Virus record (IMG/VR): IMGVR_UViG_3300035180_001524
Location: 1 to 38,487 of that record
From: a virus
Strand: one strand, 5' to 3'
DNA: 38,487 nt
The stretch's first letter is position 1; every line of letters starts with the position of its first letter. The translations under genes and the position numbers were made by a program. The notes under the pieces are model-generated. The model had not been told where the DNA came from. It saw nothing but the letters and a program-made list of their open reading frames with translations, and did not search any database. Shown here in pieces: positions 32,777-34,757 of this stretch.

Positions 32777-33196
32777 TCAGCGGTTGACGCACTTCCTGAT
32801 GAACTGGCTCATAGTCAAACACTCCTCCTCCGCCCTGCGCCGAATGTGGGCCAACTCCGCCTCCGACAGACGGAACCTGATCACGCGATCCCGGGGCTCC
32901 TGAATGTCGACGATCCCTAGCACCTCGGCGAACTCTTCTAGCGCATTGTCGTGCCTGCCCTCCTCCAGCAACTGCCGCGCACGTGCCGGAGTGATGGGTA
33001 TGATGCGCCCACCCGCGAACTCCGTCTGTGGGCCTCCCTCGCCTGACAGGAACCATCTGCCGCCGTTGGGGGCGTAGTATAGCGTCGCTAGCCAACCTGC
33101 GTCTTGGTCGAGCGGGTTGTGGTAGACCGGCGCAACCGGTATCGCGTGCTTGGTATCGTAGGTCACCCCGTCGATCGTTTGCCGCATTGCCATCAT
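32777..33196 (-). CDS. RHH-type DNA-binding protein with phage N-terminal domain
   Basis: The 139-residue protein has a C-terminal ribbon-helix-helix: strand RVIRFRLSE, helices EAELAHIRRRAEEE and TMSQFIRKCVNR. The N-terminal part (VTYDTKHAIPVAPVYHN, then WLATLYYAPNGGRWFLSGEG and IPITPARARQLLEEG) resembles a widespread small domain with an LY-x-x-x-x-G-x-WFL-x-GEGG motif found in phages and mobile elements. A fusion with RHH suggests an autoregulatory repressor. It is the last gene of the minus-strand operon. Two tandem ATGs (33196 and 33193) follow AGGAG; the second has better spacing. Confidence 0.65.
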   Translation of the reverse strand: MMAMRQTIDGVTYDTKHAIPVAPVYHNPLDQDAGWLATLYYAPNGGRWFLSGEGGPQTEFAGGRIIPITPARARQLLEEGRHDNALEEFAEVLGIVDIQEPRDRVIRFRLSEAELAHIRRRAEEECLTMSQFIRKCVNR

Positions 33197-33247: not shown

Positions 33248-33925
33248 TTAGTACTGTTCAGTGATCTTGATCGTGGCCCCCGAAGAGCAGCGAACGTGAA
33301 CGCTGTCGGCGATCCTGACCAAGTCGTAGAGGTTATCGCCGGTGAGCTCCGCATCCGGCCAGATCGTCACCGCCGCGTATCGGAGTTCCCCGTTGATGTC
33401 GACGCTGTCGCCCTTGCGGATATCGAGCTCCCAGCCACGCACCAAGCCCGGGAACAGCGGCCCGACGATCCAGAGCGCTTCCCACGCCCGGTTCCATGCC
33501 AGCACGTGCCGCATATCCCAGGCAGTGTCCATTGAGCCGCATTCGACCTCTTTGCCGTCCTCAATGACAGAGTATGCCTTCGTCCCGTTCGGGCGGGAAA
33601 CGGTCACGGCGTACCGAACGTGCTCATCGCCCGGTGCCCAAGAGACGTCGATCGAGGTCCGACCGGTCAACGTCCTGTGGCATACGTGGAACCTTCCATC
33701 GGTGAAGATGATGGCTGGGCCAGTGATCCCCTTGCCCATGGCACCTTCGGGGGTGCCTTCCGCGATCTCCTCCAGAGTGGGACGTAAGTCGTCGGCCTCC
33801 CAGAACTCCTCGCCCTGCGGAACGACGGACGATCTCGCCCACCCGTGCTCGTAGGCACGGGCGATCCGCAATGCTGCATTCGCGAGATCAATCGGGAGCT
33901 CCTGCCAGACCTGCTCAGTGTTCAT
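33248..33925 (-). CDS. Hypothetical protein, member C of the three-gene paralogous family
   Basis: The 225-residue product starts MNTEQVWQELPIDLANAALR and shares with the genes at 6671 and 7478 the N-terminal ANAALRIAR helix, the LRPTLEEI segment, the block DMRHVLAWNRAWEALWIVGP followed by LFPGLVRGWEL, and a C-terminal LRYAAVTIWPDAE block. It lies on the minus strand 25 kb away from its relatives. This dispersed third copy rules out a mere local duplication. Upstream of its ATG lies hammerhead element A, and AGCGGAGGAGTAGG serves as ribosome site. Confidence 0.68.
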   Translation of the reverse strand: MNTEQVWQELPIDLANAALRIARAYEHGWARSSVVPQGEEFWEADDLRPTLEEIAEGTPEGAMGKGITGPAIIFTDGRFHVCHRTLTGRTSIDVSWAPGDEHVRYAVTVSRPNGTKAYSVIEDGKEVECGSMDTAWDMRHVLAWNRAWEALWIVGPLFPGLVRGWELDIRKGDSVDINGELRYAAVTIWPDAELTGDNLYDLVRIADSVHVRCSSGATIKITEQY

Positions 33926-33976
33926 CGTCCTACTCCTCCGCTGCGTCCCGAAAATGGTAACGGCTTACGCGGGTTT

Positions 33977-34035
33977 GCCTCATCAGCACGGGGGGAACCG
34001 CCTCCCCGTGGACCGGCCCGGAGGCCGGTTTCGGC
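33977..34035 (-). ncRNA. Type II hammerhead ribozyme A
   Basis: Reading the minus strand from 34035 to 33977: GCC (stem II 3' strand), GAAA (34032-34029), stem III CCGGCC/GGCCGG with a TCCG loop, U (34012), C (34011), stem I CACGGGG/CCCCGTG, CUGAUGA (33986-33980), GGC (stem II 5' strand). The A of GAAA pairs with the U as the family requires and the cleavage triplet is GUC. Predicted cut is between 34011 and 34010. It lies in the 120-base gap between the minus-strand genes at 34046 and 33248. Confidence 0.85.
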
Positions 34036-34045
34036 CTGCCACCGT

Positions 34046-34333
34046 TCATTTGCAAGTGGCGAGCAGCTCCGCAAAGTCGAGCAGCTCGGCGGACCGCCTC
34101 CGGAGCATTGCCGCCTGCTTGTAGTACTTGCCGGCCTGCAAGGCGCAAGACCGGCGCTCGCGCTCGTCAAGATTCTCATCCTCGCGGTCGATATCGTATC
34201 CTTCCGCAAGATGCTCAACGCGATCGGCGTCCTCCGCGTACGCGCGGGCGACGCGGGTCATGGTGTCGAGCAGGTCGGAGAGCCTCTGCTCCTTCGAGGT
34301 GGAAGCGATCCAGGCGAGATCATGATTGTTCAT
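34046..34333 (-). CDS. Hypothetical helical protein of accessory operon
   Basis: The 95-residue product starts MNNHDLAWIASTSKEQRLSD and is almost all helix (LLDTMTRVARAYAEDADRVE, ERRSCALQAGKYYKQAAMLR, SAELLDFAELLATCK) with strong charge. Such helical proteins are often small DNA- or protein-binding accessory factors, but no family is recognised. The start at 34333 is favoured because CAGGGCAGGAG lies upstream; longer frames run into the ribozyme. It is flanked by hammerheads on both sides: B upstream of its start, A just after its stop. Confidence 0.6.
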   Translation of the reverse strand: MNNHDLAWIASTSKEQRLSDLLDTMTRVARAYAEDADRVEHLAEGYDIDREDENLDERERRSCALQAGKYYKQAAMLRRRSAELLDFAELLATCK

Positions 34334-34389
34334 CGTACTGCTCCTGCCCTGCGCCCCTAGTGGGTGGCGGATTATGGGCCGTTTGGCTT

Positions 34390-34448
34390 GCCTCATCAGT
34401 GCGTGGGGAGCCACCCCATCGCAGACCGGCCCTAGGGCCGGTTTCGGC
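34390..34448 (-). ncRNA. Type II hammerhead ribozyme B
   Basis: Reading from 34448 to 34390: GCC, GAAA (34445-34442), stem III CCGGCC/GGCCGG with a CUAG loop, U (34425), C (34424), stem I UGCG-A-UGGGG/CCCCA-CGCA with one bulge, CUGAUGA (34399-34393), GGC. It begins right after the TAA of the gene at 34449. Stem I differs from element A in sequence but both pair, a compensatory pattern. Predicted cut is between 34424 and 34423. Confidence 0.87.
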
Positions 34449-34664
34449 TTAGTGCAGGTAGAAACATAAGTTCATGGCGAGGTCCCGGAGGTCCCTGGCC
34501 GTGGCCGGGTCCTCGTAGTCGAAGTCGAGGGCATGGGACAAGAGCATCTTGATGGTCTCGGGCAGGGTCTGCCCTTGGGCGTCCTCCTCAAGGAGGTGGT
34601 AGAGGTCGAAACGATTGTAGAGCGCGAGGGTCCCGAGGGTGGACTGCGCGGACGTTGCGGGCAT
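34449..34664 (-). CDS. Hypothetical small helical protein
   Basis: The 71-residue product starts MPATSAQSTLGTLALYNRFD and contains LYHLLEEDAQGQTLPETIKM, followed by a helical end (ATARDLRDLAMNLCFYLH). No family is recognised. It is the first gene after the minus-strand promoter at 34729-34757 and its stop touches ribozyme B. The leader before it (34665-34728) repeats a motif shared with the leaders of the next two genes, without a ribozyme core of its own. Confidence 0.6.
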   Translation of the reverse strand: MPATSAQSTLGTLALYNRFDLYHLLEEDAQGQTLPETIKMLLSHALDFDYEDPATARDLRDLAMNLCFYLH

Positions 34665-34728
34665 TGTGGTCTCCAGAACCCTGCGCCCCCTCTGGGTTAG
34701 CGGCTTACGGGTTTGTTCTTACACCTAT

Positions 34729-34757
34729 ACTATACCACGCCGTAGCCACGCTGTCAA
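34729..34757 (-). promoter_or_regulatory. Sigma70-type promoter of the accessory operon, minus strand
   Basis: On the minus strand TTGACA (34757-34752) and TATAGT (34734-34729) are 17 bases apart. The start site would be near 34722, giving a leader of about 58 nt for the gene at 34664. The upstream methyltransferase has a separate promoter. Confidence 0.87.

Follow-up and report, generated by a model that had tools for sequence, protein, structure and literature searches.

Two type II hammerhead ribozymes between small accessory genes of a tailed phage and their likely role in cutting the operon message

In this study we analysed a stretch of 38,487 nucleotides (IMG/VR virus record IMGVR_UViG_3300035180_001524, positions 1 to 38,487; hereafter the window), whose genes for terminase, portal, major head and primase are those of a tailed phage. 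On its minus strand we found an accessory operon with the order promoter, 71-aa gene, HHR B, 95-aa gene, HHR A, 225-aa gene and 139-aa gene, where HHR A and HHR B are hammerhead ribozymes (Table 1). A gene for a D12-type DNA methyltransferase (36023-34797) is located upstream of the operon. The 71-, 95- and 225-aa proteins had no match in Pfam or PHROG, and a pattern scan for the 95-aa protein revealed no close relatives; a diverged one is present in the related record G001. A megablast search of the window from 28 to 38.5 kb against 50,697 phage records gave no match, and the terminase is less than 60% identical to the terminases of all these records. Among cellular records the closest is L170, a prophage-like region of a Chthonomonas MAG, whose terminase is 52% identical to that of the window. 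This might be a weak hint at the host lineage, too distant to name a host.

Table 1. Features of the accessory operon in transcription order, with positions in the window
Feature	Positions	Strand	Basis and remarks
Sigma70 promoter TTGACA-17-TATAGT	34729..34757	minus	Consensus scan, 11/12 matches; same promoter in relatives
Shared leader behind promoter	34662..34708	minus	R1 model 50.3 bits; hairpin CGYYA..RRCG and ribosome-binding site
71-aa gene	34449..34664	minus	Stop codon directly adjoins HHR B; L124 has a homologue with 85% identity
HHR B core	34390..34448	minus	RF02276 48.1 bits, MFE fold, direct reading
HHR B predicted cleavage site	34423..34424	minus	Hammerhead consensus position: after C34424 (GUC), new 5'-OH at U34423
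HHR B loop I UGGCU, pseudoknot partner	34409..34413	minus	
HHR B pseudoknot strand AGCCA	34384..34388	minus	Direct reading; complementarity over the full 5 nt of loop I
Shared leader behind HHR B	34331..34375	minus	R1 model 56.6 bits; covariation
95-aa gene, between the ribozymes	34046..34333	minus	Homologue in G001
HHR A, second type II hammerhead	33972..34035	minus	RF02276 49.7 bits; repeat of HHR B
Shared leader behind HHR A	33923..33968	minus	R1 model 56.2 bits
225-aa gene, behind HHR A	33248..33925	minus	
139-aa gene, last in operon	32777..33196	minus	C-terminal ribbon-helix-helix-like (NikA-like) DNA-binding domain, Pfam PF21983 5.7e-8

Direct reading of the minus strand from 34448 to 34384 gives GCC-GAAA-CCGGCC-CUAG-GGCCGG-UC/UGCG-A-UGGGG-UGGCU-CCCCA-CGCA-CUGAUGA-GGC-A-AGCCA. 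The elements of HHR B thus follow each other as stem II, GAAA, stem III, GUC, stem I, CUGAUGA and stem II, with GCC at 34448-34446, GAAA at 34445-34442, a GUC ending at C34424, CUGAUGA at 34399-34393 and GGC at 34392-34390. Stem III consists of 6 bp and an A34442-U34425 pair and is closed by a CUAG loop, stem I is composed of 4 bp, the bulged A34419 and 5 bp, and all core bases are those of a canonical hammerhead. Stems I and III are capped and stem II is open, which is the type II permutation, and the MFE fold of this stretch is exactly a type II hammerhead (-31.8 kcal/mol, z -2.24). An earlier sequence-only reading had named the type II elements on the minus strand and described them correctly base by base; what it overlooked was the pseudoknot strand at 34388-34384, which pairs over 5 bp with the fully complementary loop I (34413-34409). 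Pairing between loop I and the tail is critical for fast cleavage (Perreault et al., PMC3088659). The same reading had placed the start of the ribozyme right behind the stop codon of the gene at 34449, and indeed the UAA at 34451-34449 lies directly next to the first stem II base (offset 0).

The covariance-model search that had been proposed as a check was run with Rfam cmscan and matched Hammerhead_II (RF02276) at 34449-34381 with 48.1 bits, the gathering score being 37 bits (E 5.1e-7 in the window). No Rfam family other than RF02276 matched in the window, and a search of 14 control genomes with RF02276 gave no match. A chance origin of HHR B, to which a small probability had been assigned beforehand, is ruled out by the RF02276 scores, the clean control genomes, the copies in relatives and the compensatory changes. 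By covariance model, fold and the compensatory changes of its relatives the minus strand from 34448 to 34390 is a complete type II hammerhead. Its catalysis we infer from the family, and the cut would fall between C34424 and U34423, the site given by the sequence-only reading and predicted here from the hammerhead consensus position.

RF02276 also matched HHR A (34036-33969, 49.7 bits). Searches of the window and of the whole record returned the same two sites, and no third ribozyme was found in the window. HHR A and HHR B are direct repeats with 78% identity, and both contain CUGAUGA, GAAA and GUC, in agreement with CUGANGA, GAAA and UH at the cut site. In HHR A, loop I (34000-33996, CGGUU) and the tail (33975-33972, AACC) form a pseudoknot of GGUU with AACC; at 4 bp in HHR A and 5 bp in HHR B, both copies show the pseudoknot of at least 4 bp that is a feature of most Hammerhead_II members. 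The cut in HHR A is predicted after C34011. HHR B, the 95-aa gene and HHR A lie on one strand and form a clustered array, that is, at least two hammerheads flanking single genes or short blocks.

A scan for the terminase of this phage gave 23 related loci, and RF02276 was then searched over 24 records. Five related records contain hammerheads, two each in G001 and G016 and one each in G004, G012 and G021; six of these seven further members score above gathering and one G016 copy lies below it (32.1 bits). The eight distinct hammerhead sequences align without gaps, stems II and III being nearly invariant. Changes on both sides with pairing kept were found in five of the nine stem I pairs and in one pseudoknot pair (39-62, C-G to U-A between copies and relatives). 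The share of paired cells is 92.7% in the named structure versus 29-47% with partners slid by 1-3 columns, and the covariation score of the named structure beats 500 of 500 shuffles. By itself the covariation among eight sequences gives good, not overwhelming, support; combined with the RF02276 model there is little room for doubt. The orthologue of HHR B in G001 (L003 4582-4640) has its stems and pseudoknot intact and carries the core change U4C (CCGAUGA), which reduces activity in vitro while viroid infectivity is still possible (Perreault et al., PMC3088659). Because of this activity-lowering change in the orthologue, HHR B activity may not be strictly maintained. In G016 a hammerhead is situated immediately 5' of a terminator-like A-tract hairpin, followed by the next promoter. 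As a side observation, a third hammerhead variant with a UAUG/CAUA stem I and a CUGACGA core was seen on the minus strand of L168 (425-494), where a terminator-like hairpin with an A-tract follows directly, and then the next promoter.

The promoter and both ribozymes are each followed by the same leader of about 46 nt, made up of GUAAGCCG, a small hairpin CGYYA...RRCG and then a ribosome-binding site; two pairs of this hairpin changed on both sides among 13 leaders. With the leader covariance model we found exactly three copies in the window and two to five per hammerhead-bearing relative, all of them within the accessory operon. In the relatives the leader is preceded by a promoter or a hammerhead, apart from one extra copy behind neither in G001, G012 and G021. 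The 95-aa gene is found behind HHR B in the window and behind a promoter in G001. In this phage group, a promoter and a ribozyme serve as interchangeable parts of a gene boundary, 5' of one common leader hairpin. The genes around HHR A differ as well: upstream, the window and G001 have the 95-aa gene, whereas G004, G012, G016 and G021 have a 69-aa gene; downstream, the window and G004 share the 225-aa gene, with an 83-aa gene at this place in G001, G012 and G021. Each of the four possible combinations occurs, and therefore HHR A stays in place while its neighbouring genes on both sides undergo exchange or insertion. It may either promote this exchange or merely survive it, and we prefer neither of the two. 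The varying flanking genes and the similarity of the two repeats would also suit sequences that are passive or selfish, duplicated together with the leader or kept to supply homology for the recombination of cassettes, and whose cleavage has no effect. However, pairing is preserved by double changes both in stem I and in the pseudoknot, and the fact that loop/tail pairing is widespread (see below) points to selection for an active fold, and we regard an inconsequential ribozyme as quite improbable.

In two pattern scans of viral contigs we obtained at least 139 unique ribozymes with a GCC/GGC stem II and at least 163 with a GGC/GCC stem II. Identical ribozymes were removed from these sets, the contigs are not phylogenetically independent and the gene calls are crude. 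Among the matches listed, a stop codon ends within -7 to +1 nt of the first ribozyme base in 126/139 and 130/163 cases (80-91%), whereas about 33 and 40 (about 24%) are expected from windows of equal width further upstream. Frames of at least 60 codons end at the 5' end of the ribozyme in 68% of the matches listed, compared with 3.5% at random positions. The helix between loop I and tail has a mean length of 2.98 and 2.95 bp in the matches listed, versus 2.08 and 2.21 bp with tails swapped among ribozymes. Opposite-strand stops at the ribozyme 3' end are mildly enriched (12% among the matches listed), probably as a result of convergent genes. The order stop codon, ribozyme, ribosome-binding site on one strand is the rule in viral type II hammerheads among the matches listed. 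Several viral contigs carry 4-8 type II hammerheads; in L014, L024, L080, L243 and L191 there are 5-8 on one strand, about 200-2500 bases apart.

The close contact with the stop codon might mean that cleavage is gated by translation and takes place only when ribosomes are sparse or gone, since in a ribozyme starting at the stop codon a terminating ribosome would cover stem II and GAAA. Both the stop codon counts among the matches listed and the offset of 0 in HHR B fit such gating. However, compact phage genomes and the need to cut only past the stop codon would favour the same placement, and HHR A begins 10 nt past its upstream stop, just beyond the range counted. Gated cleavage thus seems unlikely to us.

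We favour the reading that HHR B is a type II hammerhead cutting the accessory-operon RNA at C34424/U34423 and, together with HHR A, splitting one transcript into three messages, most likely in order to set message ends, stability and dosage per gene; we would give this a probability of roughly 0.82. Sequence, fold, conservation, covariation and placement were observed directly, and cleavage and its effect on expression would be expected from the family. Transcription from 34757 would read through the operon, with each hammerhead folding during synthesis and cutting after its GUC. The first message would comprise the 71-aa gene with its stop codon and about 25 nt more, and would terminate in a 2',3'-cyclic phosphate at the stable stem III hairpin; a second one of 413 nt would encode the 95-aa protein and a third one the 225- and 139-aa proteins. 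Both downstream messages would begin with a 5'-OH and the stem I/pseudoknot fold, followed by the conserved leader hairpin and the ribosome-binding site. As the cut site is placed just past the stop codon, no coding sequence would be cut and no non-stop message would arise. Message ends, hence stability and dosage, could most likely be set in this way for each gene without a separate promoter and terminator.

The excised 413-nt piece could have another fate: HHR A and HHR B agree fully in their stem II arms (GCC/GGC) and core, and therefore this piece bears compatible halves at its ends, the 3' half from HHR A and the 5' half from HHR B, which might re-pair via stem II and ligate to a circular mRNA or RNA. 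Perreault et al. (PMC3088659), however, looked for spliced or circular products of comparable arrays and detected none, and the two ribozymes do not always occur as a pair, for G004, G012 and G021 hold a single one. We consider circularisation very improbable. Intergenic cutting of the message remains the most likely role; it matches published precedent and agrees with the sequence-only reading, which had seen in HHR B a ribozyme that would separate the messages of two genes. It is also conceivable, though on the whole doubtful, that phage type II hammerheads are more generally stop-codon-coupled gene-boundary devices that generate both new ends, 3' for the preceding message and 5' for the following one, perhaps with the terminating ribosome in control. 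As such they might serve as a plug-in alternative to terminator plus promoter before a common leader and let accessory genes swap around them.

Type II hammerheads, their pseudoknot and hammerhead clusters around small phage genes were all published in 2011 (Perreault et al., PMC3088659), and because both the class and the gene arrangement were reported then, the locus belongs to a known kind. With Hammerhead_II (RF02276; PMC3088659) it shares the open and short stem II, the core, GUC, the loop I/3'-tail pseudoknot and the phage setting without an essential difference, both window copies being above gathering. The clustered prophage hammerheads (the triple array at ardA in Agrobacterium, Azorhizobium and Clostridium scindens; PMC3088659) likewise place several ribozymes among small phage genes whose identity varies, but the window adds a shared leader hairpin behind each ribozyme and behind the promoter, and its genes (71, 95 and 225 aa) are without known family. 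HHphage of the haloviruses HF1/HF2 (PMC3088659) is likewise a hammerhead carried by phages in a gene's 5' UTR; it is, however, a structural variant with an altered core, whereas the window has two type II copies with a canonical core. In the 2011 assays three tandem hammerhead arrays were cleaved in vitro, and cleavage of the A. tumefaciens array was seen within E. coli cells as well; 4/18 consensus hammerheads were inactive under the conditions used (PMC3088659). A 2017 review (PMC6155905) repeats the hammerhead-cluster pattern and still counts the function of hammerheads in prokaryotes among the open questions. To the picture of 2011 we add numbers for stop-codon abutment, the interchange of promoter and ribozyme before a shared leader, and the swapping of genes on both sides. 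Neither the stop-codon rule in numbers nor the promoter/ribozyme interchange was found in the literature accessible to us, a search that lay mostly outside subscription papers.

In conclusion, the locus is a clean case with one strong promoter, two well-formed ribozymes and three small genes. Between phages, the same gene can be preceded by a promoter or by a ribozyme, and this provides natural matched pairs for measuring the effect of a ribozyme on expression. With the abutment of stop codon and ribozyme, measured in about 300 listed viral type II hammerheads, there is also a simple rule which can be tested directly.
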